Below are positions 37,441 to 64,000 of a stretch of 64,000 nt of DNA, in pieces. The notes beneath the pieces are model-generated. The model did not search any database. It was not told the origin of the DNA and worked only from the letters and a program-made list of their open reading frames with translations. This stretch comes from a bacterium (GTDB lineage: Bacteria > Oederibacteriota > JAAXVQ01 > JAUVAV01). The position numbers and the translations under genes were made by a program. Location of the stretch: contig JAIORK010000008.1 in the NCBI GenBank assembly GCA_021108215.1, positions 62,001 through 126,000 of the forward strand. Reading direction: 5' to 3'. Every line of letters starts with the position of its first letter. The stretch's first letter is position 1.

Positions 37441-37480
37441 TTTTTTTAGTGGAAAAGATGACCGGGAGCGGGCTTGTGCA

Positions 37481-37509
37481 TTGACAGTGAAAAACGTCTT
37501 TGGTATAAT
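37481..37509 (+). promoter_or_regulatory. consensus promoter of the GH130 gene
   Basis: TTGACA (37481-37486), 17 bp, TATAAT (37504-37509): perfect consensus, about 58 bases before ATG 37567. Confidence 0.88.
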
Positions 37510-37566
37510 TCCCGAAATTTTGAGAAATTGGTTTTCCATTTTAGAGGAAAAGAAGGAGTCGACCCG

Positions 37567-38594: not shown

Positions 38595-38623
38595 AAGCGG
38601 GGTTAATATCAACCCCGCTTTTT
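38595..38623 (+). terminator. terminator of the GH130 gene
   Basis: AAGCGGGGTT/AACCCCGCTT stem, AATATC loop, followed by T-rich sequence. Confidence 0.93.
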
Positions 38624-39223: not shown

Positions 39224-39252
39224 TTGACTCACCTTTTTTTTTGTGATATTTT
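39224..39252 (+). promoter_or_regulatory. candidate promoter of the giant gene
   Basis: TTGACT (39224-39229), 17-bp spacer and TATTTT (39247-39252) lie about 60 bases before the start. The spacing matches the other promoters in the window, but the hexamers are imperfect. Confidence 0.45.
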
Positions 39253-39314
39253 AGTAATACGATTTTCCACGGATTTATATTTCAAAATCCTTGAACAAAA
39301 GGAGTGCTTGCCCC

Positions 39315-39482
39315 ATGAAAAATATTTCTTTTTTTCCAAAAAACAGTATTGAGGTCAAAGACGTAACATCGATGCGATGGTGGCGTCATCCCATCCGAAA
39401 AAGTCTGACGCGCGTGATCGCCTTGTTGGTGACCATAACATTTGTGTTTCCGTATCTGACCTGGGCGTTTGAAGCGGATGCG
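39315..39482 (+). other. giant protein: N-terminal signal anchor
   Basis: Residues 21-33 are Arg/Trp-rich and 33-51 are hydrophobic (VIALLVTITFVFPYLTWA), followed by FEADAYPAAGS. It could be a cleaved signal peptide or a membrane anchor. An alternative start at Met20 (39372) would give a more ordinary signal-peptide length but lacks the ribosome-binding site. Confidence 0.7.
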
Positions 39483-42400
39483 TATCCGGCCGCAGGGTCA
39501 GCGGTGACGTTCAATGACGCTAAGGTGGAGATACCGGATGACTATGCGATGACATTGGATGCGAACCAGGGGCAGGCGCATCTGATCGTGCATGTGCAGG
39601 ATCTGCATTGCAACTACGAGGTGCAGAGCAATATCGCGAATATTATTGACTATATGGCAGACAAACACGCGTTGAAATTGGTGGCATTGGAAGGGGCATC
39701 CAAGCCGGTCAATACAACGCATCTCTCCAGTTTTCCGAATGAACAAGTGAAAAAAGAAACCGGGCAATATTTTATGCGCCAGGGCAAGATCAGCGGTGCG
39801 GAGTATTATGCAGCCACCGGCCGTCACAAAATCAGTCTGAATGGTATTGAAAAAGCGGAGTTGTATGATGACAGCCGTGAGATGGTGATGAGCTTTTTAA
39901 ATGATGAGAGCCAGGGTTATATTTATGATTTGTGTGACCTGCTTGATGAGATCAAAGGCGGCATTTACAACGATGGGCTGAAAAAAATTGATGCGCAAAA
40001 GCAGGCCTATCGCGAAGGTGATACCTCACAATTGAAGTATGGCGCTTTTTTATGCGGGGCGGCAAAAAAGCAGGGGATTCATTTGGATGCCTATCCGCAG
40101 CTGTTGGGATATGTTTCGAAGCGGCAAAATATTATTCCGCAAGATGTTGATCCGGATTTGGTATACAACCAGGTGGATGCACTGGACCGTGAAATTCGCA
40201 GAACGCTTTACACCGACAATGCTCAGCAGACCTTGGATATATTCAAACATCGTTTGGAAGTGATGGAAAAGCTGTTGAATATTTCCGCCACCCCGGAAGA
40301 ATTGATTGAGTATCAGAGCAATCCGCAAGCCTTCCGTGTGGAACCCATTGTCGCATTTATTCAAAAGTATGATGCCATGGGTGACCTGGGCATGGATTTG
40401 GAAGTATTTGGTCTGGATACCTATCTGACCAAGGTAATGAAATTTTACCATTTGGCGGATTTGCGTTCGGATGCATTTGTGGAAAATACCCTGTCGGATA
40501 TGAAAGCCGAAGGCACCAATCTGGCGGTGATGGTAACCGGCGGTTTTCATACTGAACGTGTTTTGGCAGTGATGAAGGCAAGGGGACTTTCTTATATTTC
40601 GGTCCGGCCGCGTATGACACATGAAGACTTGGTTAATCCGTATTTCGCATTGTTGCGTAACCGCCGTACGCCGTTGGAAAAATTGTTGGCTGAAAATCAG
40701 AATATTCTGGCTTTGGCACCGAGCTTCCCGCAGGTGGGAGAACCCAACACCGTTTTGAGCGCCCAGGATGAAGCCGTTCAGCCGGAGAATGTCAGGATCT
40801 TTTTGAATCTGATGCGAATGGTATTGCAGGAAACCGAGATTGCAGCGTTGGTGGAAAATGGTCAGACCACACTGGCCGGTCTGCGTGAGTCAGCCGAAGC
40901 CAGCCAGGCAGCCTATCCGTATGCCAATGAAATCCAGATTGATTGGGAAAATGCTCAGGCCAGTGAAAATGCATTTATCGTACCGTTTGCCGGATTGAAT
41001 GTCTCGGCTGTGATTTTGCCCAAGGAGGCCAAGACGGTTGAAGGCGTGGCTTTGGCAACAATTGAGGGTGAGGGAGCTTATACGGTTACCGTGCTGGACA
41101 ACGCGACGGTTGCCAAAACGCAGGAAAGAATTTTAAGCACCGGAACGCGTGTGGCTGGAACCGGTGTGCGCGGATTGTTGATGCCGTTGATGAGCCCGGC
41201 AGCTGTGATGACTGCCGGCGGCATGGTGATTGCAGCGCTGCAGCCGGTTGCCGGCAACGCCTTTGGTATCGGTAATATGATGAGCGGATTGAGCAATATG
41301 GTGAGCGGAATTCGTGGACCGCAGATGCCGGGCGGGCTGAACAATGCTTTGCGAAATCTTCGCGCTGCCAACAGTGAAGCCGGATTTATCTCGCGAAATC
41401 TTGCCATCGCACTGGGTGGATTGGCGGTTGCAGGTGTGGGCGTGTATGCATTGATTACATTGGGGGGATTTGCCCTGCTGCCGGTAGCGGCGATTGTGGT
41501 CGGTGTGGGGATATTTGCATTTCCGATTATAAGGACGGCGCTAAGCAGAGGCCGGGAAACTCAAGCTGCAGCGAAGCCGGTGGCAGCCCAGACGCGGATC
41601 GGAAAAATAGTGCAAAGTCAGGAACCGGATCAGACTAAAACAGAACTCAACACATATTTATATACAATTAAGAATATGCAGAGCAAAGAAGTATTGAAAG
41701 CGGAAGTGAAAGAATATGCGGTCGCACTGGAGGCAGGCGAGTTTGTCAGTGACCAGCAGGCGTTGGCAGTGCTTTCAAGTATGCTGGCCGCAGCCTATCA
41801 AAATCAAAATGTGGCCAATGTCAGTTACCTAATTCAGGCCTATGTTCTGGGAAACGATGTGATTACAGGGCATTTTGAAATGGATCGGTTGGATGCAGCC
41901 AATGTACTGGCGCATGCGACGGTCAGTCCTGAGATTACCGGCACCATCGGTGAACACAACACGGTTGTGCAGGAGACGATGGTTGATTTGTTGGCTTCAT
42001 CCCTGGTGCAGCTATATGCTTTTGATGCCGAAGCGATGTTGACTAAAAAAGGCCGTATCGCGCGCGGCCATCGTATTAAGGGATTTTATGCCAACCTGGA
42101 AAGCAAACTGCAAAGCAGCCGGGCGGAAGCAATCGCATATATGCGGGCCAATATTAATAATCCTGATTTATTGGATCATCGCATGGCCGGAGAATTAAAT
42201 ACCATCCAGTTAACCAGTCGTGTTCTGTATCAAGTGGCCAATAGTAAGGTGGATATGAATAAACTGGTGGAAATGGGCGCTGACCGGACACGGTCATTTG
42301 AATTTCGCGGAGCAGTGAAAAACGTTGTTTCCATGAATAAAATAGCGGCGATTCAGGAGCCGCTCACCGTTTATATGACCTTTGCAGCGTATGGTGAGCA

Positions 42401-45400
42401 TGCCAGAATGTTTAATGAAAATTTTCTTTATCATAAATTTGAGCAGGTTAAATTACTGTCTGAAGTTAATCCTAAATTAAAAATGGAAATTATCATTAGT
42501 GATGATGAATTTGCCAATACCTATCCTGCCCAGAAAATTAGCGGAAAAGATGAAAACGGCCGGGACTATGAAGAGCCCTTGGGATCAGTGAATATTCATA
42601 TGGGGGAATTGTTCGGTTTGTTTACCGAGGCATTGACCGGCAATGGCAAGCAGGAAGCAGATGTTCATAACAGCTGGACATCTGAAATAAATGATAATGT
42701 GCGTTTGAGAATTGTGGATGTCGACAGTGCGATAAAACGCGAAAAAGCCGATCCCGGAAGCGTACCGGTGATGGCGGAATACATTAATGAAGCTGCCAGC
42801 CGCAAGGGCGGGTCCATTGCCTATGCATTGTGGCTGGGCGAGCAGCTTTCGCAGCAGAATCCTGATCGGTCTTTTGTTGCGTATACGGATGCGGATATTT
42901 CAACGGACTTGCTGCAAACCGGCTTGCTGGTGGAAAAAATGCTGGACGGTGCCGATGTCACCATTGCCAGTACGGAATTATCGGATTCGGTGATGGAAGG
43001 CAAAACCGCCGGCCGTAAAGTTCAGAGTATTGGCATGAATACTTTTTCAAATGGATTGTTGGATTTTAGTACGCAGATAGCGGCGATCTATCATTTGGGG
43101 AATGGTGTGCTGAATATACTTGGGCGCAAAGCCATTGCACCCAAGTGGGGAGGACGTATTACAGATACACAGCGTGGATTTAAAATGTTCACCCCCAAGA
43201 CACTCCGCAAAATGATGGAAACATTCACTCAGTATCCGCAGGAAATGGCCATCGATACATCGTTGTTGGTGCAATTGAACAATATTGGCGCGAGAATTGA
43301 CGAAGCGGGAATCGCCTGGAAACCGCTGGAAGAAGATTCCACCACCCGTCCGGCGGATGGTGTGAATATGTTGTATCGCTTGTTTACGCAGCGTATCGCG
43401 TATGTGCTGCCACGATTAAGCTTTGGTAAACGATTGGCGGCAACCTGGGTTGTTTTGTTGGCAGGCGCTTATTTGAAATTTGCTTTACGCGCTTTTGAAC
43501 CTGCCAGCCATCCGTTTAAAGGCAAGGCCATCAACCGATTTAAAGCGGAAATGGTTGCCATGGAAGCGAAAGCGACCGGCAAAAGTGTGACGGAAATAAC
43601 AGCAGAGATGAATGCTTATTACAGCCGGGCAGCGATCGGGGATGCAACTGCCGAAGCCTATGTGGAAGAATTCAAACAAAAAGAAATGGAACGTGTCAGC
43701 CAGGCGGAACCGGAAAATGCGGAAGCGATCATCGCGAATTTGAATAAGGTGAAAGTCAAAGCTTATGGTGTAAATGGCATGGTCAATTCGATCATTTTGA
43801 CGAATCTGTCTTTGTTCGGAGGTCGGACGCAGGAAGTTAAAGTGGCCCTAACCACCAAAAATATCTTAAAGGAAATGGGACTGCTCAAGCTGGTCATGAG
43901 TATGTTTTTAGGCGGCGTGGCTGCTTTTGGAGTTTTGTCCATTGTGCTGGCAGGTGTTACACCGGCGGCAATTATAACGATAATCACGGCCGGCGTTTTA
44001 GCGTTTTTACCGGCTGTTACCGCGATGAGGAATATCCGGTCCATTAATGTATCGGCATCGGCCAATGAATTGGGACAAAAAGTAATTACAGAAGTGCGCA
44101 ATCTGGGTATTGCCATCCCGGAAGATACAGCCATTGAAATCCGGGTGGGTGAGTTGAAATCAACCGGTAATAATATGAAAGAATTGGCCAAATGGGATGC
44201 GTTGACCAACCGCATCACTGTCAACCGGGAATTGTTGAAAAAAGAGAATCAAGCGGTGTTGGCCGGAACGCTTGCGCAGCAATTGGCGCAGGTATTTGGC
44301 GAAGAACTGGATTATGCTCAATTATATGAGATAGGAAAAAAAGTGGTTGAGAGACAAGGTCTATCGGTTGATGAATATATGGAGAGCCAGCGTATTAAGA
44401 TTGGCTTGGTTTCTGCGTATGCCGGTCAGGGCGGTCTCAAAGAGTATGTAAATCATCTCTTAAATGGTTATGCGCATTTGGTAAAGGATGGACTTGTCAA
44501 AGTCGAAGTTTTTGGTCATACCACCGATCTGATGGAAAAGGATAAAATTGAACAAGGTGATAAGGAAAAAGGTCCCGGGTTGGTAGGGTTTGGACCGGAC
44601 ACAAAATTAGGCGGCTATGCTACTTTGACGGAACAAGTAGAAATGGCGCGAAAGATGTTTCAGGAAAATTTAACCTTGAGCGGTCGGACAGTCGCAATTT
44701 TGGACGGGACAGGCCGGTTACCTGCGGAGACTACCGGTGTTTTGGTTATTTCGCAGTCAGATGTGCAAACAGCTATTCGAAAAGGTGAATTGATCCGCGG
44801 CAATAAAGACAGCTATCGCAAATGGATTGGCGTCCGGGCCGAACAAGCCCGGGTCAATATTGTCGTGCGGGAGGGATTAGCGCAGGATGCAGAGCTTTTT
44901 AGCTCCCAACAGCAGGCAGATACCCGCAATATCCTGGATCAGAAATTTATTGGCGAACAGGAAATTACCAATGAATTTGGTACCGTGGTTAAGTTTGTTG
45001 TTACGTTACCAGAGGTGGATGAGCGTACGGTGAAAATAAATCTGGCCTCCGGTGAGAAAGTTGGCGTGCCGGTGCGCATCAATCGTGTTACACGCTTTAA
45101 CGTCACCAGCAATGAGCAACTGATTCAGTCTTTGGCTGAACGCGGGGTGGATATTGTCAATTTTCAGTGGCTGATCACTTCGGCGGTAGATGCGGCGTCC
45201 GGTATGTTTAATGCATTTATGCCTGCCGCTGTACGGAAAATTGCTAATATTCCTACCACGGTCACCATGCATCATACCGCGTATACGATGGATATGGAAG
45301 CGGCGGGTAAGGTCCCGGATCTTAAATCGAAAGCAATCGTCATGGCAGGATCTGAATTGATTGAAAACGCGTTGTCAGCGACGGATCAGGTCTATGTGCT

Positions 45401-57400: not shown

Positions 57401-60400
57401 AATCGGTGTGGTCAGTGCCTATGCTCACTTAGGCGGATTGAAGGAATTTGTGAATCATACGCTTAATGGCTACGGTCCGCTGATCAAAGACGGTGTTGTG
57501 GAAGTGGAAGTCTTCGGACATGAGGATGTCCGTAAAGGAAAGGCTTTGCCTGAAGTGGATGTGCGTAATGTCAAAGTCACGGCAGCCGACGGCTTCAAGA
57601 CAACCGTGCCGGTGCGTATCAATCGCGTGACCAAGTTTAATGATTCCACAAGTATTGAACGCGTCGGTTATGCTGTGGCGCAGCGCGACTGTGATGTTGT
57701 CAATTTCACCTGGCTGCTCACCTCGGCGGCAGATGATCCCAAAGGTGTTTTGGGAGCATTTGCACCGGCTGTCATTGAAAAAATCGCGGGTGTGCCTACC
57801 ACCGTGACCATGCATCATACTGTGCATACCATGGATCTTGAAGCCGGCCAGAAAGTGACGGGTTTTGTTTCGAAGATCAAGGTGGTGGCGGGTTCGGAAT
57901 TAATTGAGCGCAGCCTTGGTTTGGTTTCTCAGGTGTATGTATTGCTGGATCGTTATATTGATGCTTACCGTGACAATTACGGCATCCAGGCACGGCGCAT
58001 GCATCACGGATTTTTCCAGTTGAAAGAAGATCTGCCGCGGGAAGATGATATGGTTTTTATCGGCTCGGTGGGCAAATGGGGCGACTATAAGTTGGTGGAA
58101 GATCAGGTGAAGGGACTCCAGGAGATGTTTAAACAGGACACCAGCCTCAAGGACAAGGCTATCGGTCTTTTGGGGGGCGGAGACAATCCCAATGCGCTTG
58201 GTTACACCAAACGTATGGAGGAATTTTACCGCAGCCATCCGGAAGAAGGTGTGCTGGTGATTACCGGTGCCGAGGTGGTCGCTGCGGTGGAGGCCGCCGG
58301 GGATATGGATATGAACAGTTACCGCGCCTGGATTGCGGCCCGTGCTGCTGAGGCGGATGCGACCATTGTTTACCGCTCCGGATTTATTGAAGATGCCGAG
58401 TTCGGACCGATTAATGATACCTATGATATCGCTTTGCTGCTTTACCGCTCCACCACCGGAACTTCCGGACCGGCGCATGAAGCCGCCGGTATCGGCGGGA
58501 CGCCGATTGTGGCATCTTTGCAGGAACCGCGTTATGACGATCTGGCGGATTTGCGCCAGGAAGGTTTGTTTGTTAACGGTGTTCAGACAGTCGAGACCAC
58601 GGGTCCGGAAGGCCAAAAAGTGATGATTCCCAACGCGGAAGAGTGCGGCAGTGTCCTGGCGGAATTGGTTAAAAATGACACCATGCGTCATGAGCAGCAG
58701 GCACGTAATTTTGCCGCCGGTCAGAGTCTGGTGCCGGCGCGCATTGGGGAACAATACTACAATGATTTTACGCGCATCCTGAAAATGGACCAGGCCGACA
58801 CTGTGGTGGGAAAATTGCGCACCAGCCGGAGCACACAACTGCCTGCGCGCGGCGCCATGTTCTGGGCACGCTTCAGTGTGATGTTTGTGTTCAGCTTAGG
58901 GCCGCGTATCGTGGCATCCATTCTTTCTGCGGTTAATTATGCGCGCGGCAATCTGGTGGGGATCGCTTTTACCCGCCGTGCTTACGATCAGATTATGCAG
59001 GGGAAAGAATTGACCGCTGAGGCGATGGCACAAGAGCAGGGTATTTCTGTGAAAAAAGCCCGCCGCGCTTTAGAGAAAATGGCATCTGTAGAAGCCGAAA
59101 CTTCGCATCATCCCGGCGTGGACCGTGTGGTACGCGCCGATGGTACTGTGGCCTATGTTTCGGTTGGTTATAAAAACGCGAACCTTAGTGAATTGCGTAA
59201 TGTGGTTAAAAAGAACCTGGGTCCCAAAGAAGCACTGGTTATCACCAATGGCGGTGATGATGTGATTGCGGAACAAAAATTTCAGTCCCAGGCGAAATCA
59301 ATTTTCCGGAAAGACGGCAAGGTTGCCATTATGGCGCATCCTGAGGTGGTGCGGCGTGGTCAGTTCCAGGGTCTTTTAGATGCGATCCGGAGCTTTGTCA
59401 AGCGTCATGGAGCCCTTGATAAAAATGATGTTTCCGTGGGGATCATGATGCCCGGCAAGGGCACACGCATGAGTCCGCTGACCCAGCGTGCATTTGGGAT
59501 CAAGCCTTTTTTACCCATGCTGGTCCGCTCCTCGCGTACTGGTGCCTGGTTCTCCGGTGCAGAAGCCTCGCTCTATACATGGAGTCTGGTGGCGAATCAT
59601 CTCAAGCGCATGGGATTCAGAGGGATGGCCTGGAAATGGGGGGATGAACCTCAGATCGCAGCCAACCATATGGCTGCTATGAATCTTGAACTTTCGGAAG
59701 CGGACGCGGTCCGTTTTGGAGCTCAGACAGTGATTACCGAAGATCTGGCTGCCAACAAGGAATGGCTCCATGTGGATGCGAAGACCGGTGAATTTAAGCA
59801 GGTCCGGCGTCGTTCGCGTGATGCCTTGCTGGAACGGTTGGGGGTTGAGGATACGGTGGATGCCAAGGCATTTGTCCATATCGGCAGCCCGGCCTTTTCG
59901 TATACTTTCCTGGAAGCGGCTGAACAGGCGTTTAGCGATCTGACCGAGGGTTGGATTGATGTGGATGGTTATATTTTTGAAGCCCTGACGCAGGACCAGG
60001 CAACCTGGAATGCTGAAGTTGCCAAAGATTCCGGATTGCAGAAGGTCTTGTCGGATTATCCTGATTTTTACGAACGTGTCCAGAATATGAAGGCGATTAT
60101 CAATGCCAAGCGCGGCCGCGCAGCAGATTCATCACTCAATATTCAAGTGATTGATTTTGGTGAGGGTCTGTACTGGGGTGATATCGGCCAGCTGGCCAAA
60201 GCCCGTGATACGCTCTGGGCAGTGAATGACCGCACCGGGAAAAACGGCGAGTTTGCCCGGCGCATGGCTGCGATTGACCATATTAAACCGGATCAATACG
60301 GCAACATTGTAGTGGGTGACTCACGTGTGCCGCAAGACGGCAGTGTGCGCAACAGTGTGATTATTAATACAAAAATTCACGGCCAAGCCGCCATCAGCGG

Positions 60401-63400
60401 CGCAGTGCTGGTGGATAGCGAACTTAACAATGCATCCATTGCCCAAGGCGCGGTTGTCTTTGAATCCACCGTGGCTGATCTCACGATGGGTGAAAATGCA
60501 TATGCTCACGGCTCTGTGGCGGAGACGGTCGATGTTCCGGCGCAGTTTGTGCATACCAGTATGCCGGTTAATCCGAAAAACACAGCAGCGGGTCTGGAAA
60601 ACTGGATGGCGGATTCCCGTGAAAATGTTGGTAAGGGTAATTTATATGAAAAACCCCAGTGGGGAAATTCCATGTCGCTCCAGGCCAAGTTTGATCAGAT
60701 GCGGCAGCGCGAGGTTATGCCCGATGCTATTGAAGCGGAGATCAGCATTATCCGCGAACAGATTGCACAGCAGTTCCGGAGGGTTGATATAGACCAACAG
60801 GGTCCGGGAACGGGTCAAGGCCGGTTTGGCAATATTCGTGTACTCCCCATCATTGTTGGCCTGGGACTTGCCGGTCTGGGTATTGCCGGTGTGATCACGA
60901 TGGCATTGCCCCTGATCTGGATCGCGCCCATTGCATTGGTCGGAGCGCTGGTGGCAATAATACCGGTGACTTTGCCGGGCATACGGCAGATGTTACAGAA
61001 TCGGCCGGTCTGGACGATTGTATCTTCTCTGGTACTATTGCTGCCCATGCTCGCATTGACAGCTGTGCCGTTTCATGGTGTGTTGGGTGAGATAATTATG
61101 CCCATTGTTGAGACCACGGGATCAGCCTGGGTTTTCTTTGGTTTGTTTGTTCCGTTCCTGACATTGTATATGGGAACCACGGTTTTGGTGACAGCCAGCC
61201 TGATTGGCGGGGTGTATGGTGTAATAAATGTTCTGCGCAGTTCGCGCAGGACATCCCGGACAAAGGACCAAACACGCCAACCGGGTCGCGGCGAGGGCGG
61301 GTTTATCAACCTGAATGTGTTAGGCTCAATCGCCGGTGTTGCGGCAACTATTTTAGGTGTTGTGATGTTGGGAACGGTGGGACTCACAGTGGCATCCGGT
61401 TTGACAGTGGCGCTTGGGCTGGGCCTGATCGGGATCGTTTTTTTGAGCAACCGTTCCAAGCTGGGTTTGATATCCAAACTGGTGATGGCATTTTTAGCCA
61501 GCGGCGGGTTGGGCTTGCTCATGAGCCAGCCGGCTGTGAATTATACCCAGCAGGAGCGTTTTGCCATTGCGCAGCGGGATTACAGCAGTCTTTCAGACCA
61601 GGCATTGACACGCTACATGTTGAGCCAATCCAAGATTTCGACAGTGGCGTTTGCCTTTGTGGGTGAGCGGATTAAAGGCAATGCCCTTAATGGTTTGATT
61701 AAAGGGTATATGTCTTATTATGGATTTTATACCGGTGCTAAGGATATTGAAATTTTCTCTTCGCCGGACCAACTGGATATGGTGGATCGTGGAGATCTGC
61801 CCGCACCGGCGGCATATCATCATGCCTGGGGACACTCGGTGGTAGAAAGTCTGGATCGTGTGCTGGAAACCAAGCATGCCACACAGACGCATTACACAAT
61901 TCATTGGCCCAACTGGGACGATTATTTTTCAATCAAAGAGGGCGGTCCGGGTGTTGCAGACAGTCAGGACTTCCTGGCGTTCCATACAGACCGCGCCTTG
62001 GAAGCTGAGGTCAGAGCGGAAGAACTGGCTTTGCTCGACCGGGCAGCGCAGTCCAATACGGTGATTTTAATGGAGACCACCATTGGCTGGCGCTCTGAAC
62101 AACTGCTGGATAAGACCGGTCGTTCGCGCGCTGATTACATGCGTAACCTGATTGCTCATGTGCGTAAATTGCAGGATGCCTGGCTGGCACAGAATCCGGA
62201 CAAAACACGGGCGGAGGCGCCGATCGGCATCACACTCAATCCCTGGCATCTGGCCATGGATGTTTATGGTCCGCAAATTCAGCAATGGATCAGTGAAGGC
62301 AAGAGTGCGTCGGAAATTCGTGATGCCTTGTTGCCATTGATGACGGAATTTTACCAACAGACGCAGGGGATGGTACAACGCTTTTATTTCGGTAATTCAA
62401 CCCTGACGGATATGAACCTGCCGGTTGAACTTCAACGCGGCCGGATTCTTGCGGCTGAGGGGATTGTTCCGGAAATGCAGCTTTTCCGCATGGTGCTGGC
62501 GGATAATTCTGAAATTGTCAACAACAGCACGATGGAGGTTTCTCCGCAGGCAGCAGTCCAATCGCTGCAAGGCGAGCAGGCGGCTCAAGAGCGGCGCAGC
62601 GCAACCGTGAGTACGGTTGTGCTGGCCATCGGCGGAGCATTGCTGACTGCCGGATTGGTGGTATTTGCCGTGGTTGGATTAAGCGGCATCGCGGCCGGGC
62701 TGGCGATTGTCGGTGTGGCAGCCCTCACCGTGCGCAGTATTTTGCGGCGTAATCGTGTTCGCAATAGTTATCCACTCACCAATGAACAAGGCACACTGGC
62801 TGCCACAGACCGTGAAATCCTGCGGACGGTTTTTCAACAAGGCGGTGTTTCATTGAGTTGGACCATGGTTATGAACAATGTTAAAAATACTGTTGCGCTT
62901 CGAGGCTTGCAAGCTTTGGTGCCGTTTTTTGTCCGTTCTTATATGTGGGTAGCGGGACGCTTTTTAGGCATTCGCAAGGCTGAGATTTATGATGACGGTG
63001 TTCAGCCTGAAATAGCTTTGCGCATGGCACGTAAAGGTAAACTTGCGATCCAGACCATTCACAGTGCGGCCTGGAACGAGACGGTTGATCAGCTTTATCC
63101 CTTGTTCAACCGTACTTTTGAACCGCAGGAAGAAGCCAAAATGATCTTCCATACCGAGCTGATGAATGATTTGATCAGCGATTTTAAGGTCAAAGAAGGC
63201 ATGCAGGGTGCAGACCGCATGGATGTGCTCATGGCCATGGCCGAGCAGGCACGGGCCAATAATATTCAACTATTGATTGAACCGGTTTTTGAATTGACCA
63301 AGCAGAGCAGTCTGGCTAATTTTCAACAGTCGGTGGAAGAAGTCCGTGCCTGGCGTGAGGCTTGGGCAGTCAAATATCCGGGACAGGAAATTCCGATCCA

Positions 63401-64000
63401 GATTGTATTTGATGCGTGGCATTGGGTGTCGGAGTCACGGCCTGAACTTTATCAGCAGTATTTCCAGGCCAAGACCCATGGTGAGCGCGATCAGATTCGT
63501 GCTGAAGTTTTGGAAATAATGACTAAGACATTTGATTCTCTCCAGGATATGGTGGGCTGGATTCATATCACCAACGTTAATCCCAACATCAAGTCAGAGA
63601 TGCTGACTCATGGCGCAACCTTGTTCGGGAATGACACTTTCCTGGCCAATCGGGCGTACCTGCGGCATATTCACGCGCAGCGGCCGGACCTGCTGGGCAA
63701 GGTGACGCTCGAACTCGGTCCTCTGTATTTTTTGAGGGCCTGGTTCGGACACGAAGCAGCCATACGTCAAACCGGCAAGAGCCAAAAGGGTAGCGCGCTT
63801 AATTCGGATGGATTCAGCCTGAGCGGTAGGGGGCGTAATATTGTAGGCGGTCTGACAGTGGTGGCCGGTGTTGCTGCGGCACTACTGACAGGCAGTGTTT
63901 TTGCGGCTTTGCCGCTGGCATTGATTACGATTGGAAGCATGCTGGTTGCCGTACCGGTTATTATGAATTTCTTCAAAGGACCGCATGCATTTCGCGCCAT
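39315..64000 (+). CDS. giant multidomain membrane-threaded glycan-assembly protein, 3'-truncated by the window edge
   Basis: One reading frame stays open for 24,686 bases (8,228 complete codons) from ATG 39315 to the last base. I read it codon by codon and met no stop; all codons begin at positions divisible by 3. AAAAGGAG (39297-39304) lies 10 bases before the ATG. In order: signal anchor (33-51), unrecognised domain, helical region, GT2-like domain, GT-B-like domain, multi-pass module, guanylyltransferase, phosphomannomutase, UDPGP-like domain, multi-pass module, helical region, GT2, GT-B, nucleotidyltransferase, and two TIM-like domains, with hydrophobic hairpins between. Most catalytic motifs are intact. 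It has no close counterpart I can name; giant frames are known in Omnitrophota. The C-terminus is not in the window. Confidence 0.95.
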   Translation, partial: MKNISFFPKNSIEVKDVTSMRWWRHPIRKSLTRVIALLVTITFVFPYLTWAFEADAYPAAGSAVTFNDAKVEIPDDYAMTLDANQGQAHLIVHVQDLHCNYEVQSNIANIIDYMADKHALKLVALEGASKPVNTTHLSSFPNEQVKKETGQYFMRQGKISGAEYYAATGRHKISLNGIEKAELYDDSREMVMSFLNDESQGYIYDLCDLLDEIKGGIYNDGLKKIDAQKQAYREGDTSQLKYGAFLCGAAKKQGIHLDAYPQLLGYVSKRQNIIPQDVDPDLVYNQVDALDREIRRTLYTDNAQQTLDIFKHRLEVMEKLLNISATPEELIEYQSNPQAFRVEPIVAFIQKYDAMGDLGMDLEVFGLDTYLTKVMKFYHLADLRSDAFVENTLSDMKAEGTNLAVMVTGGFHTERVLAVMKARGLSYISVRPRMTHEDLVNPYFALLRNRRTPLEKLLAENQNILALAPSFPQVGEPNTVLSAQDEAVQPENVRIFLNLMRMVLQETEIAALVENGQTTLAGLRESAEASQAAYPYANEIQIDWENAQASENAFIVPFAGLNVSAVILPKEAKTVEGVALATIEGEGAYTVTVLDNATVAKTQERILSTGTRVAGTGVRGLLMPLMSPAAVMTAGGMVIAALQPVAGNAFGIGNMMSGLSNMVSGIRGPQMPGGLNNALRNLRAANSEAGFISRNLAIALGGLAVAGVGVYALITLGGFALLPVAAIVVGVGIFAFPIIRTALSRGRETQAAAKPVAAQTRIGKIVQSQEPDQTKTELNTYLYTIKNMQSKEVLKAEVKEYAVALEAGEFVSDQQALAVLSSMLAAAYQNQNVANVSYLIQAYVLGNDVITGHFEMDRLDAANVLAHATVSPEITGTIGEHNTVVQETMVDLLASSLVQLYAFDAEAMLTKKGRIARGHRIKGFYANLESKLQSSRAEAIAYMRANINNPDLLDHRMAGELNTIQLTSRVLYQVANSKVDMNKLVEMGADRTRSFEFRGAVKNVVSMNKIAAIQEPLTVYMTFAAYGEHARMFNENFLYHKFEQVKLLSEVNPKLKMEIIISDDEFANTYPAQKISGKDENGRDYEEPLGSVNIHMGELFGLFTEALTGNGKQEADVHNSWTSEINDNVRLRIVDVDSAIKREKADPGSVPVMAEYINEAASRKGGSIAYALWLGEQLSQQNPDRSFVAYTDADISTDLLQTGLLVEKMLDGADVTIASTELSDSVMEGKTAGRKVQSIGMNTFSNGLLDFSTQIAAIYHLGNGVLNILGRKAIAPKWGGRITDTQRGFKMFTPKTLRKMMETFTQYPQEMAIDTSLLVQLNNIGARIDEAGIAWKPLEEDSTTRPADGVNMLYRLFTQRIAYVLPRLSFGKRLAATWVVLLAGAYLKFALRAFEPASHPFKGKAINRFKAEMVAMEAKATGKSVTEITAEMNAYYSRAAIGDATAEAYVEEFKQKEMERVSQAEPENAEAIIANLNKVKVKAYGVNGMVNSIILTNLSLFGGRTQEVKVALTTKNILKEMGLLKLVMSMFLGGVAAFGVLSIVLAGVTPAAIITIITAGVLAFLPAVTAMRNIRSINVSASANELGQKVITEVRNLGIAIPEDTAIEIRVGELKSTGNNMKELAKWDALTNRITVNRELLKKENQAVLAGTLAQQLAQVFGEELDYAQLYEIGKKVVERQGLSVDEYMESQRIKIGLVSAYAGQGGLKEYVNHLLNGYAHLVKDGLVKVEVFGHTTDLMEKDKIEQGDKEKGPGLVGFGPDTKLGGYATLTEQVEMARKMFQENLTLSGRTVAILDGTGRLPAETTGVLVISQSDVQTAIRKGELIRGNKDSYRKWIGVRAEQARVNIVVREGLAQDAELFSSQQQADTRNILDQKFIGEQEITNEFGTVVKFVVTLPEVDERTVKINLASGEKVGVPVRINRVTRFNVTSNEQLIQSLAERGVDIVNFQWLITSAVDAASGMFNAFMPAAVRKIANIPTTVTMHHTAYTMDMEAAGKVPDLKSKAIVMAGSELIENALSATDQVYVLLNRYVDAYRDIRNIRARRMHHGYFKLKSRVDRKDGKLFIGSVGKWGDYKKVEDVVQSLQEMFKQDASLKGKAIGLIGGGDNPNALGYTKYMKEYYRNHPEEGVLVIEAREVVEAIRAKKLLADDTDSYRQWIAGRAKEAGVNIVYRPGFIENAEFGPINAAYDLSLQPYRATTGTSGPVHEAAGYGGTPTITSLQEKWADDMGDLREEGIFINGIRNIEVTDENGKKKMMVNVQAFGAKLVELANNPEMRAEQAAQNYAAGKILLPVDVAQQYFSDYQRILGKDQSDVVVGKVASDMSSRAPPTGIRFWVGFLGVGLRLVPRIFVSVTNTIQYTAGRIKKFAFSHAKGAKANETKFAETWDETQVVKSRKRQILAASGITAAAFGFSLISYFSLGTAGQAQILSNVTTFLVNNQQYLINGGIFAVLTALQDIIGQKLSDRPTFNWKQTFFSAILGGTVGVQVALLFTAIDWAFPLTGIADSNFFKLFGMNEILSVLPGITIKFIRMFGALVAGLMISLEYNVLTMIFGKNLGNYTVKDQAIKAVDFNILKSPFALLWGFFNQNYSPAIISVFGMAFPFRAAAQGFYDFLWGGIQAWAFNAQEPLRYKLQRLLYRVTGRGFTNEKAAYGMIADGRVLTVSEFAGLVNINEAAAKKALEYLASPLGEKVEMGGIDKKIAADGQEVYYQIKAADMSKARVVILAGGGGERVWPASDGTYPKQFQSFSKDGKTMLAKTVARVMSMGIAKEQILIATRSSFVTQVQESLPTDFPVENIIGEPGKKDTGAAIALNLAHMEPGTTGVFLPADHVISEHLTGAEQAEALDTFRQAIEAGVKASQNKERVVSTIGIRPSYAATGYGYIQTGDQTKMGVDKTNVLQGKGFQEKPKKDVAIEMVQSGDYVWNAGMFVMQRDFGLELFEKHAPAISQAMDGIRNRLSTIAELRAQQLGDGFVEPRQRAIERNQREIAELYNGIPKEAAVSVDFAIMENLKQELMTVEGTFPWFDEGDWGSMTEAKDQDGNQEIGPGQVRLEGTQNTVVYAGQNINVTVRGLDDHVVAVKDGMVLVMPKALSDKLKTLTAELNTDAAMKQFVAGTASDRGAGLVHQKDSENSRVDTDNGLVALFGVTGVRVKQTGDRVIVEKDVATGITRRGQRGSATLDFAMLLGGIGMIGLGVFLGITGAGLMMVVGGLAASLGVALAVMPALYRVWQNRGAVKAETRLEKALDTATGIAAISGFIWLGAVVLGSVVSMVGFLIATLGGSPDVFQLVEFVSAYGYLAMTGLYGVALSSFGALYVMNRIKRWFSDGLTKASWTKNKALKFGTSGLRGLVTDMTDAECYINTKGYVEYLIDTNQIKRGDTITIGGDLRSSTDRIMEAVARGVLDAGCKVENIGKVPSPTVMFHAMQKGQASVMVTGSHIPDDRNGIKFNKADGEVLKADEAGVLASVNKVRAEEVAKNVLKSNFDNEGMLKAGVEKALGKENTAAYTQFVRRYLDIFPANALKGRKIVVEQHSAVGRDMLVEILEGLGAEVVAAQRSEAFVPKDTENITQETRDNFRVLAKEHQPFAIVSTDGDSDRPFVVDENGLFNRGDELGIVVARFLGADFAAVPISSNDAVLNVLGSESVPLQLTRIGSPYVIAAMNEAMAQGKQRVVSWEVNGGFLTANDMEINGKILKALPTRDAILPIIVALLAAHEKGSVSQVFGELPQRFTQAGLLDNFPQSVSQALLTMLKPSDGTILQVNYLIGTIEVERSDGSKESIPMDGELAKEMLAVKATLENQYFTSENGFGELASMNFIDGVRMRFSNQDVAHIRPSGNAPQLRMYTNTDSQERANQVVDQGIADGGILRQMEKDLKGADQTTTRQRSGEAGFVTLPVMASVAGLGMLAGAIILAIGAGTLIMPAIILGAAGFVFFMGGILFALRDNVLGTRGFVNQVRVRINGKRANIRIDLHQAETVKGAIVPRFVSKQQNFTLRFEDRALSGKLLEVEGKTYLKIGERWVMVQQTDLNTLPLAELVNSELLLGNPGLRTFLGIKAVTADHLAMKLPENIRAVTELPGIAETRYDQTVIDDALETLAATDLIRLMESDNLRTEHLVDYLDGLAVIAGKQALHYDEFKVAMDKLQIFLGIAPTLMGLNISQEMQADAGQLMVYFTKLKMGYPELLMDRIKQDISQIKTEVDNMGTIVDGKTGAIAEGDLVNVNFLDVTQKQDLENQFAAQGINPADYKTIAEIGIAGQGSRILKDYFRRNKMDTQVFPAADAFMNYLRGKGVAGKALAARLANQTYTGLIGMMAARNPGAIWIGGMPTIQSIEKLVGKGRRILTQAVVHYLNLDGTFQKEKVDVGGHGFLPRTLANDAEALVGMIEQGAVWEHIQGDDLGNEFNSGAMAWMIKTGQTPFSPLVTPQEIHFNDRLASIVRLVEAGRTVTIAGKKVAAVEGRVIVLEDGVRLDVEAEMDKFRQDRDAMNAMVARAGALKADPIAQRDSIIAAMTFFMESIYQPVAAVNYTADGKTKPLFAYSQKAGGSLIEVAGGARFAEQSNYTDEVTMTNSQGRTSAFPRNVFLAIMQRDFNTNHFSVDPIAIAANRDSEIKNAYHAFLEYAQVLRENPAALAKRRRILEEKVAARIRVIGTTDWAYRGLAVERLMLAVFPIPCEYKGKGETAFIKLNMMAQDVISFEAMLALSKTTAEDITLDQLDEIMQSAGSRETFADKAVVKNEMFKRSGIDLAPADGLENIPRFKSIMVDMNDFTQAKDDFSQVNLRLNPVVGNFFDDTLGDLQRQALTGIWWAQEAQQLGLIGEKAQAVFQAVCQAVVINGPKLEDNAPAQEKIDYAKKLELLHAIRELVFAENIAQIYNWSKLIDESTDTPSAETMLGYSAQKPATVVAAVTPQTPAETVRKLNFVSRRNLAVAAVGAIIAVSITATILTGTPETANGAALLGFWRTIEPYALSALTGGAMAGIADAIGQKLSDRPANNRKQTLWAAIIGLSFGIQTQLIFQFIDYAAPLAGWGASGLIQSLGLTGTMVGWDWAVPWVRMVMGAGTAIMMVEYWVITTFFAKNLKTYNFKNEGNKFIDFFIAKTPIALAYNYALQNLVPMSLVMAAFILPIRSIAQIVTDQIFAILQAWAFNQSHPLRYYAARAFNRLLGRTPQGPGADEPQTRFGQIAQIKEHETKKAAMNDLAWQVRQMENSAQFDELIREFDQALAAGEFTSEGESLAVLASLLAAAYQTPALNFEGAVELENLNEDVTKKNEMLQAADQVARATTDEAASRALSAASETLNLYTVALLSEPTLNLFAYDAVQTFTAGDIARQQNVTKFYQELESRLASDRSAAVAYMREHLTDTELYDQKNLAELNGQRVMSSLLFNVSQSAVGYAVIESVAKQDGASYWFKSADKNVESMIKLTQVKEPTTVYMSFAVYGEQMRLFNEDFLRMKVRQMQELIDINPNLRVEFIISDDEYATAFPKAAQGIQVHSGDVMTLFLDAMLETPGQETNDRFGAWRAQAHENMGFRVVNVEAAVQREIANPGSVPVMAEYANETRSRKGGSIQYLLWMGEQLSHEQSDRRSYVAYTDADISTDMMQTGLLIHGIREGASAAIGTSEASTSVLASKSLGRKLKSLVYNILVNGLLQLSSATIPVTGRITDTQRGFKMFSPGVLQRMHSAFTQYPQEMAIDTALLSQLRLMGEPIVEAPIAWLASEAESTVRAQDNSDMLYRVLQQRRDYVRPRQMGAQTGLLKQAVGFVWLMGGAMMLRLLVAMINTDRQLHGSAIAKFKQVMITAEADATGKSIEQIEQDMDAFYKREGIDTESIEGYIADFKMKEPIRLFQAEADQAPALVSQIEAITLKDYAVGGITKNMTRIRNLFQMGDYKVAVGKILRDNLRQPEAINAIELNAVGKQVRAQLAAQGIAVPANVSFASAGLKKTGRNLQELSRWSDSQNRVLVARELLRSENQAVLAGVLAQQLAKQYGDEMNKIELYQLGRSVVEGMDLEVREYAASQRIKIGVVSAYAHLGGLKEFVNHTLNGYGPLIKDGVVEVEVFGHEDVRKGKALPEVDVRNVKVTAADGFKTTVPVRINRVTKFNDSTSIERVGYAVAQRDCDVVNFTWLLTSAADDPKGVLGAFAPAVIEKIAGVPTTVTMHHTVHTMDLEAGQKVTGFVSKIKVVAGSELIERSLGLVSQVYVLLDRYIDAYRDNYGIQARRMHHGFFQLKEDLPREDDMVFIGSVGKWGDYKLVEDQVKGLQEMFKQDTSLKDKAIGLLGGGDNPNALGYTKRMEEFYRSHPEEGVLVITGAEVVAAVEAAGDMDMNSYRAWIAARAAEADATIVYRSGFIEDAEFGPINDTYDIALLLYRSTTGTSGPAHEAAGIGGTPIVASLQEPRYDDLADLRQEGLFVNGVQTVETTGPEGQKVMIPNAEECGSVLAELVKNDTMRHEQQARNFAAGQSLVPARIGEQYYNDFTRILKMDQADTVVGKLRTSRSTQLPARGAMFWARFSVMFVFSLGPRIVASILSAVNYARGNLVGIAFTRRAYDQIMQGKELTAEAMAQEQGISVKKARRALEKMASVEAETSHHPGVDRVVRADGTVAYVSVGYKNANLSELRNVVKKNLGPKEALVITNGGDDVIAEQKFQSQAKSIFRKDGKVAIMAHPEVVRRGQFQGLLDAIRSFVKRHGALDKNDVSVGIMMPGKGTRMSPLTQRAFGIKPFLPMLVRSSRTGAWFSGAEASLYTWSLVANHLKRMGFRGMAWKWGDEPQIAANHMAAMNLELSEADAVRFGAQTVITEDLAANKEWLHVDAKTGEFKQVRRRSRDALLERLGVEDTVDAKAFVHIGSPAFSYTFLEAAEQAFSDLTEGWIDVDGYIFEALTQDQATWNAEVAKDSGLQKVLSDYPDFYERVQNMKAIINAKRGRAADSSLNIQVIDFGEGLYWGDIGQLAKARDTLWAVNDRTGKNGEFARRMAAIDHIKPDQYGNIVVGDSRVPQDGSVRNSVIINTKIHGQAAISGAVLVDSELNNASIAQGAVVFESTVADLTMGENAYAHGSVAETVDVPAQFVHTSMPVNPKNTAAGLENWMADSRENVGKGNLYEKPQWGNSMSLQAKFDQMRQREVMPDAIEAEISIIREQIAQQFRRVDIDQQGPGTGQGRFGNIRVLPIIVGLGLAGLGIAGVITMALPLIWIAPIALVGALVAIIPVTLPGIRQMLQNRPVWTIVSSLVLLLPMLALTAVPFHGVLGEIIMPIVETTGSAWVFFGLFVPFLTLYMGTTVLVTASLIGGVYGVINVLRSSRRTSRTKDQTRQPGRGEGGFINLNVLGSIAGVAATILGVVMLGTVGLTVASGLTVALGLGLIGIVFLSNRSKLGLISKLVMAFLASGGLGLLMSQPAVNYTQQERFAIAQRDYSSLSDQALTRYMLSQSKISTVAFAFVGERIKGNALNGLIKGYMSYYGFYTGAKDIEIFSSPDQLDMVDRGDLPAPAAYHHAWGHSVVESLDRVLETKHATQTHYTIHWPNWDDYFSIKEGGPGVADSQDFLAFHTDRALEAEVRAEELALLDRAAQSNTVILMETTIGWRSEQLLDKTGRSRADYMRNLIAHVRKLQDAWLAQNPDKTRAEAPIGITLNPWHLAMDVYGPQIQQWISEGKSASEIRDALLPLMTEFYQQTQGMVQRFYFGNSTLTDMNLPVELQRGRILAAEGIVPEMQLFRMVLADNSEIVNNSTMEVSPQAAVQSLQGEQAAQERRSATVSTVVLAIGGALLTAGLVVFAVVGLSGIAAGLAIVGVAALTVRSILRRNRVRNSYPLTNEQGTLAATDREILRTVFQQGGVSLSWTMVMNNVKNTVALRGLQALVPFFVRSYMWVAGRFLGIRKAEIYDDGVQPEIALRMARKGKLAIQTIHSAAWNETVDQLYPLFNRTFEPQEEAKMIFHTELMNDLISDFKVKEGMQGADRMDVLMAMAEQARANNIQLLIEPVFELTKQSSLANFQQSVEEVRAWREAWAVKYPGQEIPIQIVFDAWHWVSESRPELYQQYFQAKTHGERDQIRAEVLEIMTKTFDSLQDMVGWIHITNVNPNIKSEMLTHGATLFGNDTFLANRAYLRHIHAQRPDLLGKVTLELGPLYFLRAWFGHEAAIRQTGKSQKGSALNSDGFSLSGRGRNIVGGLTVVAGVAAALLTGSVFAALPLALITIGSMLVAVPVIMNFFKGPHAFRA
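39540..40742 (+). other. giant protein: unrecognised N-terminal domain
   Basis: About residues 76-476. Conserved-looking motifs are HVQDLHCNYEVQSNI (His93, Asp96, His98), LVALEGAS, and MVTGGFHTERVL (His412). The His/Asp/Glu arrangement recalls ChaN/TraB-like (EreA-ChaN) folds with an early histidine and a late G-x-H, but this is a weak guess. It is the first folded part after the signal anchor. Confidence 0.45.
41397..41547 (+). other. giant protein: hydrophobic hairpin 1
   Basis: Residues about 695-745. NSEAGFISRNL is followed by two hydrophobic stretches (AIALGGLAVAGVGVYALI and ALLPVAAIVVGVGIFAF). It is the first of a series of similar spacers. Confidence 0.75.
41622..42356 (+). other. giant protein: helical region, copy 1
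   Basis: About residues 770-1014, Ala/Glu/Leu-rich and helical. AVALEAGEFVSDQQALAVL and EAIAYMRANINNPDLLDHR match AALAAGEF.SEGESLAVL and AAVAYMREHLTDTELYDQ in the second copy at 54867-55616. Function unknown. Confidence 0.7.
42357..43412 (+). other. giant protein: GT2-type glycosyltransferase domain, copy 1
   Basis: About residues 1015-1366. ASRKGGSIAYAL is like the NxGKGxAL step, YTDADIST holds the DxD-type metal site at 1192-1194, and ITDTQRGFKMF (Asp1284) with EMAIDTSLLVQL matches dolichol-phosphate-mannose-synthase/GtrB-like transferases. A single hydrophobic segment follows (43434-43490). Such enzymes move a sugar from NDP-sugar or to a polyprenyl carrier. Confidence 0.8.
43884..44036 (+). 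other. giant protein: hydrophobic hairpin between GT2 and GT-B, copy 1 only
   Basis: LLKLVMSMFLGGVAAFGVL and AIITIITAGVLAFLPAV form two membrane-length stretches. The matching stretch of copy 2 (near 57000) lacks them and reads KILRDNLRQPEAINAIEL instead. Confidence 0.7.
44391..46277 (+). other. giant protein: GT-B-type glycosyltransferase domain, copy 1
   Basis: About residues 1693-2321. The N-domain begins RIKIGLVSAYAGQGGLKEY (glycine loop), with VDIVNFQWLITS and TTVTMHHTAYT. The C-domain has FIGSVGKWGDYKKVEDVV, IGLIGGGDNPNALGY and PYRATTGTSGPVHEAAGYGG, which corresponds to the donor-binding GT4 region. The Glu of VHEAA is kept, but the first Glu of the usual E-x7-E pair is not evident. 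An insertion (44604-44927) interrupts the N-domain. Confidence 0.75.
44604..44927 (+). other. giant protein: degenerate extra copy of the GT-B C-domain
   Basis: About residues 1764-1871. KLGGYATLTEQVEMARKMF and then TGVLVISQSDVQTAIRKGEL and DSYRKWIGVRAEQARVNIV align by eye with KWGDYKKVEDVVQSLQEMF, EGVLVIEAREVVEAIRAKKL and DSYRQWIAGRAKEAGVNIV of the same protein (from about 45531). The glycine-rich middle and the GTSGP...E region are lost. It looks like a decayed partial duplication inserted into the N-domain. Confidence 0.7.
46308..47231 (+). other. giant protein: multi-pass membrane module A
   Basis: About residues 2332-2639. One hydrophobic segment at 46323-46380, then about five from 46505 to 47200. 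It contains LQDIIGQKLSDRPTFNWKQT, matched by IADAIGQKLSDRPANNRKQT in module B (54093-54842). The pattern of a polar D-x-x-x-Q in the first segment recalls Mpv17/PMP22 proteins, but that is only a resemblance. Confidence 0.65.
47232..47480 (+). other. giant protein: small helix-turn-helix-like linker, copy 1
   Basis: ADGRVLTVSEFAGLVNINEAAAKKALEYL resembles a winged-helix recognition pattern. Copy 2 at 58950-59150 reads GKELTAEAMAQEQGISVKKARRALEKM. Both precede a nucleotidyltransferase. Confidence 0.5.
47481..48644 (+). other. giant protein: mannose-1-phosphate guanylyltransferase domain
   Basis: About residues 2723-3110. The signature LAGGGGERVWPASDGTYPKQF keeps the GGxGxR...WPxS...PKQF positions, followed by GEPGKKDTGAAIAL, FLPADHVI, RPSYAATGYGYI, FQEKPKKDVA with YVWNAGMFVM, and FPWFDEGDWGSM. 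The domain makes GDP-mannose from GTP and mannose-1-phosphate. All the usual catalytic positions look present. Confidence 0.88.
48855..49310 (+). other. giant protein: two hydrophobic hairpins before the phosphomutase
   Basis: Preceded by TRRGQRGSATLDF. Four hydrophobic stretches: MLLGGIGMIGLGVFLGI, MMVVGGLAASLGVALAV, IAAISGFIWLGAVVLGSVV and LAMTGLYGVALSSFGALYV. Confidence 0.75.
49350..50966 (+). other. giant protein: phosphomannomutase/phosphoglucomutase domain
   Basis: About residues 3346-3884. All four alpha-D-phosphohexomutase loops are visible: KFGTSGLRG, the phosphoserine loop VTGSHIPDDRNGIKF (Ser3443), the metal loop DGDSDRPFVV (3598), the sugar loop SWEVNGGFLTAND, and the phosphate loop RPSGNAPQLRMY (3839). 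It would convert hexose-6-phosphate to hexose-1-phosphate, feeding the guanylyltransferase domain that precedes it. Confidence 0.9.
51006..51167 (+). other. giant protein: hydrophobic hairpin after the phosphomutase
   Basis: TRQRSGEAGFVTLPV then VAGLGMLAGAIILAIGAG and AIILGAAGFVFFMGGILFA. The same R-x-G-E-x-G-F lead-in appears at 61270. Confidence 0.75.
51183..53990 (+). other. giant protein: UDPGP-like nucleotidyltransferase region, tentative
   Basis: About residues 3957-4892. VDVGGHGFLPRTLANDAEAL (His4372) with WEHIQGDDLGNEF, then QKAGGSLIEVAGG and DFNTNHFSVDP (4597) are in the order seen in UTP-glucose-1-phosphate uridylyltransferase-like (UDPGP) proteins, which have G-GHG, N-DNL, KGG and FNTNN motifs. 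The N-terminal GGLGTRLG loop is not visible, so activity is doubtful. The first 280 residues (51183-52010) are helical and unrecognised. Confidence 0.5.
54093..54842 (+). other. giant protein: multi-pass membrane module B
   Basis: About residues 4927-5176, five or six hydrophobic stretches. IADAIGQKLSDRPANNRKQT, VPWVRMVMGAGTAIMMVEYW and ILQAWAFNQSHPLRYYAAR match module A (IKFIRMFGALVAGLMISLEY, IQAWAFNAQEPLRYKLQR). Confidence 0.7.
54867..55616 (+). other. giant protein: helical region, copy 2
   Basis: Second copy of the region at 41622-42356, clearly alignable by eye over its second half (AYMREHLTDTELYDQKNLAEL). Confidence 0.7.
55617..56579 (+). other. giant protein: GT2-type glycosyltransferase domain, copy 2
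   Basis: About residues 5435-5755. YTDADISTDMMQTGLL keeps the metal-site Asp (5599), and RITDTQRGFKMFSP (Asp5671) and TQYPQEMAIDTALL are almost identical to copy 1. A hydrophobic segment follows near 56620 as in copy 1. Confidence 0.8.
57393..58811 (+). other. giant protein: GT-B-type glycosyltransferase domain, copy 2
   Basis: About residues 6027-6499. RIKIGVVSAYAHLGGLKEF, VGKWGDYKLVEDQVKGLQEM, GLLGGGDNPNALGYTKRM and GTSGPAHEAAGIGGTP parallel copy 1. It lacks the 44604-44927 insertion and so shows the simpler, probably ancestral form. Confidence 0.77.
58950..59150 (+). other. giant protein: helix-turn-helix-like linker, copy 2
   Basis: GKELTAEAMAQEQGISVKKARRALEKM; see copy 1 at 47232. Also preceded by a hydrophobic segment (about 58855-58930). 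Confidence 0.5.
59160..60776 (+). other. giant protein: sugar nucleotidyltransferase with beta-helix-like tail
   Basis: About residues 6616-7154. GIMMPGKGTRMSPLTQRAF (6714 onward) with IKPFLPML fits the G-x-G-T-R-M-x-P-L-T...K-P loop of NDP-sugar pyrophosphorylases. From about 60290 a hexapeptide-like series (NIVVGDSRV, GSVRNSVIINTKI, AAISGAVLVDSEL, ASIAQGAVVFEST) suggests a left-handed beta helix, as in GlgC/GlmU-type proteins. The nucleotide and sugar are unknown. Confidence 0.65.
60828..61523 (+). other. giant protein: cluster of hydrophobic hairpins
   Basis: Roughly seven hydrophobic stretches, with a break RSSRRTSRTKDQTRQPGRG leading to GEGGFINLNV at about 61280. It separates the nucleotidyltransferase from the TIM-like domains. 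Confidence 0.7.
61590..62561 (+). other. giant protein: TIM-barrel-like domain 1
   Basis: About residues 7426-7749. VILMETTIGWRSEQLLD then IGITLNPWHLAMDVYG then VQRFYFGNSTL has a similar order to Glu, Asp/His, and strand motifs of xylose-isomerase-like barrels. It resembles domain 2 (62778-63788). Tentative. Confidence 0.45.
62610..62747 (+). other. giant protein: hydrophobic hairpin between the TIM-like domains
   Basis: VSTVVLAIGGALLTAGLVVF and GLSGIAAGLAIVGVAALTV, followed by basic RSILRRNRVRN. Confidence 0.72.
62778..63788 (+). other. giant protein: TIM-barrel-like domain 2
   Basis: About residues 7822-8158. LLIEPVFELTKQSSL, QIVFDAWHWVSESRPEL and MVGWIHITNVNPNIKSEM resemble the E...D-x-W/G-H...H pattern of xylose-isomerase-like (AP endonuclease 2) barrels. 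It parallels domain 1 and suggests a tandem duplication. Confidence 0.48.
63831..63989 (+). other. giant protein: last visible hydrophobic hairpin
   Basis: NIVGGLTVVAGVAAALLTG and LPLALITIGSMLVAVPVIM, after SDGFSLSGRGR. The frame continues past the window, so more domains are expected. Confidence 0.72.

Follow-up and report, generated by a model that had tools for sequence, protein, structure and literature searches.

Does the reading frame that opens at ATG 39315 in a 64,000-nucleotide stretch of bacterial DNA (hereafter the window), and leaves it without a stop codon, constitute one gene, and what kind of protein might a gene of this size specify? The window comprises positions 62001-126000 of contig C8 in a 3.56 Mb genome (G000; 97% complete, 67 contigs). 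A previous sequence-only reading had reported no stop between this ATG and the last base, which we confirmed (8,228 codons, 0 stops). The frame also reads through the final 386 bases of the contig, which ends at 126,386, and its 25,071 nt exceed the 20 kb above which a single uninterrupted ORF is classed as a giant bacterial gene. Translation past the window, proposed as a check, thus reached the contig end with no stop met, so that the total length, given as unknown, can now be bounded at 8,357 codons or more. The ribosome-binding site proposed for the frame could be read directly, whereas the accompanying promoter candidate is a weak extended -10-like site, near the level found in shuffled sequence (Table 1).

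The stop-free length of the frame precludes a chance origin, and GC content by codon position is steady along its entire length. Aligned paralogous segments retain 36-68% amino-acid identity with fourfold-degenerate third positions that are near random (0.30-0.38 identical), a combination indicating that selection acts on the encoded giant protein. The further claim that no standalone gene interrupts the frame also stood: in-frame pairs of Shine-Dalgarno sequence and ATG number 4, against 15 out of frame, and neither promoter-like nor terminator-like sites inside the ORF are in excess over shuffled controls. On these grounds a series of separate genes with internal translation starts was ruled out. 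The window contains one RNA element, a tRNA lying outside the giant ORF.

Table 1. Features of the window giant and its upstream flank (window coordinates; aa, residues of the giant protein).
Feature	Position	Strand	Basis or remark
Upstream GH130 mannooligosaccharide phosphorylase gene	37462..38556	+	
Terminator-like hairpin, 3' of GH130 gene	38592-38623		
Candidate extended -10 promoter, TTGACT-17-TATTTT	39224-39252	+	Consensus scan; weak, near shuffle level
Shine-Dalgarno AAAAGGAGTG, just 5' of start codon	within 39224..39305	+	Read directly
Giant ORF	39315..64000, continuing to C8:126386	+	8,357 codons to contig end
Signal peptide, W-x-x-P-x-x-R-x-x-T-K/R-x-I-A-L-L-V-x-x-T-F-V-F-P-Y-L-T-W-A-F	39315..39470	+	Conserved motif
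N-terminal bookend domain (N-module), aa 53-470	39471..40724	+	Alignment, AlphaFold, Foldseek
Block A, aa 743-2373	41541..46433	+	Internal homology to block B
Mannose-1-phosphate guanylyltransferase (ManC), aa 2,726-3,110	47490..48644	+	Pfam, NCBIfam, PDB
Two hydrophobic hairpins before PMM	48861..49178	+	Hydropathy, K/R-rich flanks
Phosphomannomutase (PMM), aa 3,341-3,890	49335..50984	+	PF02878-80, PF00408; PDB 4hjh, 6e-87
Hydrophobic hairpin after PMM	50997..51161	+	Hydropathy, K/R-rich flanks
Large domain, no known family, common to the G004:C14 giant of another genus	51126..53954	+	33-36% identity
Block B, aa 5171-6553, duplicate of block A	54825..58973	+	Segment alignment
Domain common to the G004:C14 giant	59142..60779	+	58-67% identity
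Hydrophobic segment cluster (TM region)	60828..61523	+	Hydropathy
Two related domains, aa 7427-7806 and 7831-8211	61593..63794	+	21% identity to each other

An exact repeat of 55 bases marks the point within the gene where the contig breaks off, and the gene must therefore be longer still. The last 55 bases of C8 recur exactly, on the reverse strand, at the left end of contig C4. A different 55-mer is common to the right ends of C4 and of contig C50, both of which open with an orphaned C-terminal domain belonging to the family described below (530 and 529 codons, respectively). The window giant itself runs off its contig before any such domain. Most simply, the assembly broke because a repeat inside giant genes was collapsed; were either orphan C-terminus to belong to the window giant, the gene would comprise no fewer than 8,887 codons, to which the collapsed repeat would be added.

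Using the N-terminal 640 residues as query, we located 10 copies of the N-module in this genome, all starting long frames. The nine other frames extend over 9,482, 9,337, 9,269, 8,763, 8,636, 5,753, 4,517, 3,500 and 2,270 codons, so that the family sums to approximately 72,000 codons (216 kb), or 6.1% of the genome. The module is present in all eight genomes of the order, with 8-33 copies in each of the seven others (all of which are MAGs), whereas 37 further genomes from the phylum yielded nothing beyond one marginal 51-residue fragment; the C-terminal domain (C-bookend) was found in 8/8 genomes of the order against 0/36 others of the phylum. The view that a bacterial gene of such size is rare consequently fails for this lineage. 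A scan of GTDB genomes with an alignment query returned 174 relatives, and the 78 loci retained all come from MAGs that bear the label FCPU426, Ca. Goldiibacteriota, Ca. Firestonebacteria or unclassified bacterium; a single-sequence genome scan gave no matches, its peptide patterns being poorly conserved. The comparison with Omnitrophota offered previously is correct in that giant frames are known there, but in view of these labels it is one of analogy only. Contig C36 of the same genome carries another frame of 7,831 codons (159586-183078), in which no N-module was detected, adjoined by an open frame of short near-identical repeats (183407-189169).

Two of the paralogues contain a frameshift near the 3' end (at C4:2956-2971 in the 9,337-codon frame and C12:36810-36852 in the 9,269-codon frame), past which family sequence resumes in the next frame for 990 and 1,013 codons, respectively, the latter including the C-bookend; these may be sequence errors or real damage. 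Together with the MAG quality of the contigs and the termination of the window giant at a k-mer repeat, they are what might be expected if the frame were an assembly or binning artefact or a decayed pseudogene. We nevertheless consider this highly improbable, as the family, with long open frames, is also present in seven MAGs obtained independently in other projects, and purifying selection is strong.

The window giant starts as a member of this family, with both the conserved signal peptide and the N-module. Among 62 N-module copies whose 5' end lies within a contig, every one is preceded by a leader segment with which the frame opens, and 60 have the signal-peptide motif. The module (approximately 420 residues) contains invariant DLHC..E, EG and GGFH motifs, and in an alignment of 24 sequences H47, E51, E75 and H361 (module numbering) are invariant; these His and Glu residues may correspond to the catalytic residues of EreC. 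A sequence search of the PDB detected no similarity to the module, and comparison with a viral fold library gave only weak giant-virus matches. When an AlphaFold model (pLDDT 82.5) was compared to the PDB with Foldseek, the best matches were EreC and two EreA-like entries, with ChaN lower down (top matches 6xcs, 6xcq, 3b55 and 2rad; probability 0.99-0.63, E 3e-3 and worse, TM approximately 0.22). Because these E-values and TM-scores are weak, we describe the module as distantly EreA/ChaN-like by predicted fold, rather than as a proven member. The C-bookend, of approximately 400 residues ending RR..FR..AA, closes most complete family frames; a fold search with its model (pLDDT 71) found no relative.

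The content of the frame can be read, and includes complete ManC and PMM domains and duplicated blocks. The ManC domain matches PF00483 (5e-28), TIGR01479 (2e-57, below the NCBIfam equivalog cut-off) and PDB 2x5s (2e-33), contains the catalytic motifs AGGGGERVWP, FQEKP and WNAGMF (pattern GGxGxRxWP, EKP, WNxGMF), and is the sole full ManC detected in the genome. PMM has all four PGM/PMM subdomains, with TGSHIP, DGDSDRP, EVNGG and IRPSGNAPQ, so that the phosphoserine loop (TxSHxP), metal loop (DGDxDR), sugar loop and phosphate loop are all present. Both enzymes use cytosolic sugar phosphates, and GTP. The GH130 phosphorylase makes mannose-1-phosphate, the substrate of ManC; shortly upstream of its gene lies one that fuses an HAD hydrolase to a full GH65 phosphorylase (window 32702-35764). 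The window also contains an IS200-like Y1 transposase gene (30539-31198).

The fused PMM is 57% identical to a standalone PMM gene located between two giants on C4 (G000:C4:31432-33099). Standalone PMM genes likewise lie beside the end and/or start of a giant in G004 (C340), G006 (C48), G003 (C181) and G007 (C371), and PMM is inside the giant frame both in the window and at G003:C146. Since the fused copy in the window giant has lost the ancestral start Met (KNKALKFGTSG, compared to LMFGTSG or MLKFGTSG), independent initiation there is unlikely, although this loss argues neither for nor against later proteolytic processing. The family may thus grow by in-frame capture of neighbouring genes, and also by internal duplication.

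Whole-chain self-BLAST gave no off-diagonal matches, and the duplications emerged with chunked BLAST, by which segments of blocks A and B are 35-64% identical. Examined by eye, block A comprises, in order, an unknown part, a nucleotide-diphospho-sugar-transferase-like part (AYTDADIS), a TM hairpin and a GT-B glycosyltransferase-like part; the transferase-like parts of both blocks matched no Pfam profile or PDB sequence. A piece of the GT-B-like part of block A is itself duplicated and inserted in the same domain (aa 1742-1861 and 2056-2184; 44538-45866), an insert that is missing from block B. A multi-TM region is also duplicated (46332-47294 and 54042-54887), with the motif DIIGQKLSDRP or DAIGQKLSDRP; by eye it is Mpv17/PMP22-like, and has no Pfam support. 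PDB sequence searches gave no useful match for the large domain of no known family, and none for the other domain in common with G004, which by eye appears nucleotidyltransferase-like followed by a left-handed beta-helix. By eye, the two related domains towards the contig end resemble TIM barrels; the first has no PDB sequence match, and the second shares 31% identity with the C4 paralogue.

Cargo in the other giants of this genome is diverse. The nearest paralogue contains GH5, GH99, GNAT and GH130 domains; the giant at C4:2956 contains SecY, SecA, a TolC-like OEP and GH5; another, glucosamine-phosphate isomerase, kinases, a glycosyltransferase and HD; that on C12, a rhomboid protease domain, a metallophosphatase and a SprT-like match; and yet another, PPDK, phosphorylase, glycosyltransferase and histidine-kinase ATPase domains. 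Many stretches contain no known Pfam domain. Homologous cargo is ordered differently in giants of different genera, and the SecY-SecA-OEP block at C4:2956 precedes a 3,230-residue stretch collinear (50%) with the other C4 giant; cargo has thus been shuffled, duplicated and fused among family members. In four genera a divergent SecY forms part of giant frames, and the genomes concerned also have one canonical standalone SecY. In G000 it lies at C4:26722-27651, followed by SecA and TolC-like domains within the giant frame, and it is also found in giant frames of G002, G003 and G005.

This mosaic cargo order, the partial internal duplications and the large stretches with no recognisable domain would all be in keeping with neutral accretion, in which stops were lost without cost and the cargo consists of independent tethered domains that gain no assembly-line benefit. 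Such an origin appears improbable, given that the same bookends have been kept in eight genomes of two families and that SecY2 and ManC have repeatedly been kept in giants.

Our preferred interpretation, the whole of which we hold with evenly balanced confidence, is that the uninterrupted frame is one functional gene, and that its product, a member of a bookended family specific to this lineage, is tethered to the membrane and assembles glycan with several enzymes on one chain. A selected frame, conserved bookends and enzymatically plausible variable cargo between hydrophobic hairpins are the observed components of this interpretation. The N-terminal domain would be exported and anchor the chain, whilst the cargo domains would face the cytoplasm, a placement suggested by the K/R-rich hairpin flanks (net non-negative on both sides in 7/9 long hairpins, by hydropathy and a simple charge count) and by the cytosolic substrates of ManC and PMM. 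PMM would then convert Man-6-P to Man-1-P, which the upstream GH130 enzyme could also supply, and ManC would convert Man-1-P to GDP-mannose; this may feed the duplicated glycosyltransferase-like domains, and the whole would then act as a tethered assembly line that builds an envelope glycan containing mannose. Several points weigh against this interpretation: the signal peptide could export the entire chain; the SecY, SecA and TolC-like domains of one paralogue would be hard to assemble as a single polypeptide; the transferase-like and TIM-barrel assignments by eye have no profile or PDB support; the topology derives from simple hydropathy and charge counting; and two giants of this genome (C4:2956, C12:36852) bear frameshifts near their 3' ends.

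The first of these points leads to the alternative that the whole chain is an exported surface or predation protein, acting on other cells or on extracellular glycans, for which the SecY2-SecA2 pair built into the paralogue could serve as a dedicated translocon. The near-universal signal peptide, the GH5, GH99 and GH130 domains of the nearest paralogue and the divergent SecY of four genera are consistent with this, but the requirement of PMM and ManC for cytosolic sugar phosphates and GTP, the location of the only full ManC detected in the genome within the giant, and hairpins with positive flanks on both sides are difficult to reconcile with it. Nor did Pfam and NCBIfam searches of the window giant reveal any repeats of adhesin or toxin type; no tandem-repeat arrays were found inside the ORF, by which a tandem-repeat adhesin was ruled out. 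We therefore regard export as unlikely overall, even though it has been proposed for Omnitrophota giants (PMC10066038, PMC12419801); within the family, whole-chain secretion is possible for glycosidase-rich members and less likely in the case of the window giant.

Alternatively, translation might yield the full chain, which would afterwards be cleaved, probably close to the hairpins, into membrane-associated enzymes; the product would be a polyprotein equivalent to a fused operon. This would accommodate cargo that normally consists of separate enzymes, and a paralogue mixing components of the inner membrane (SecY), cytosol (SecA) and outer membrane (TolC); the rhomboid protease domain and SprT-like match in the C12 giant, and the prepilin-like G-F motif that precedes some hairpins, also point in this direction. 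However, that motif (EAGFVTLPV, EGGFINLNV, SEAGFISRN) is limited, among the giants, to the window giant and C8:21324, and no short motif (5-mers) recurs at the junctions of a giant, although diverse sites could be used; a common cleavage motif was rejected on both counts, and we judge the polyprotein model, the main competitor of our interpretation, rather unlikely. In the window giant, prepilin- or Flp-pilin-like sequences (RGSATLDF, EAGFVTLP and EGGFINLN) precede hairpins in the regions of aa 3183, 3895 and 7329 (48861, 50997 and 61299); C8:21324 is the only other giant in which such sequences were found.

What began as a striking single ORF can thus be treated as a gene family open to testing, in which the ends are conserved and the cargo is exchanged. 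How such genes grow is also visible, since PMM lies beside giants in most sister genomes and within the giant here. It is possible, if on balance doubtful, that the whole order has rebuilt GDP-mannose synthesis, glycan assembly and a second SecY-SecA-TolC system as some ten or more bookended giants per genome, that is as rearranging, operon-replacing assembly lines with a shared signal and end module. If uncut, such proteins would place multi-step pathways on single chains of approximately 1 MDa, distinct from both adhesins and synthases of the polyketide type; if cut, they would constitute a chromosomal bacterial polyprotein system. Either outcome would help to explain the purpose of giant genes in bacteria.

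Giant bacterial genes are already known, but the bookended, FCPU426-labelled family and its plan appear undescribed in the journal papers searched, which yielded no account of FCPU426 giant genes or of a bookend-and-cargo plan. Giant ORFs are common in Omnitrophota, as exemplified by Ca. Velamenicoccus archaeovorus (39,678 aa; PMC10066038), and resemble those described here as very long single frames in an uncultured candidate phylum, several per genome, with multiple TM segments and few annotated domains. The cargo reported for Omnitrophia is of adhesion type (discoidin, laminin G, dockerin), whereas Pfam found none of these domains in any of the ten giants of the present genome, the window giant included, whose cargo instead comprises sugar-nucleotide enzymes and Sec components among others; no shared bookend pair is reported there, and the relatives of the present family are labelled FCPU426, Goldiibacteriota or Firestonebacteria. 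The Lipocone-containing Omnitrophota giants, read as predation effectors (PMC12419801), similarly mix TM segments with polysaccharide-biosynthesis enzymes, histidine-kinase parts, peptidases and methylases, but no Lipocone was found here and no EreA/ChaN-like N-terminal bookend is reported there. The giant genes of predatory bacteria (Omnitrophota, Elusimicrobia, CG03; thousands to 85,800 aa) of West-Roberts et al. 2023 (bioRxiv 10.1101/2023.11.21.568195), as cited in PMC12057145, also combine TM helices with carbohydrate-active domains. At the level of individual modules, the N-module shares its predicted fold and spaced His/Glu motifs with EreA/ChaN-like (Tiki-type) proteins such as EreC (6xcs), but differs in its lack of detectable PDB sequence similarity, its low TM-scores and its attachment to thousands of further residues. 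Finally, the divergent second SecY, with SecA, beside a canonical SecY recalls the accessory Sec system (SecA2/SecY2), from which the present arrangement differs in that one giant chain combines SecY and SecA with TolC-like domains.
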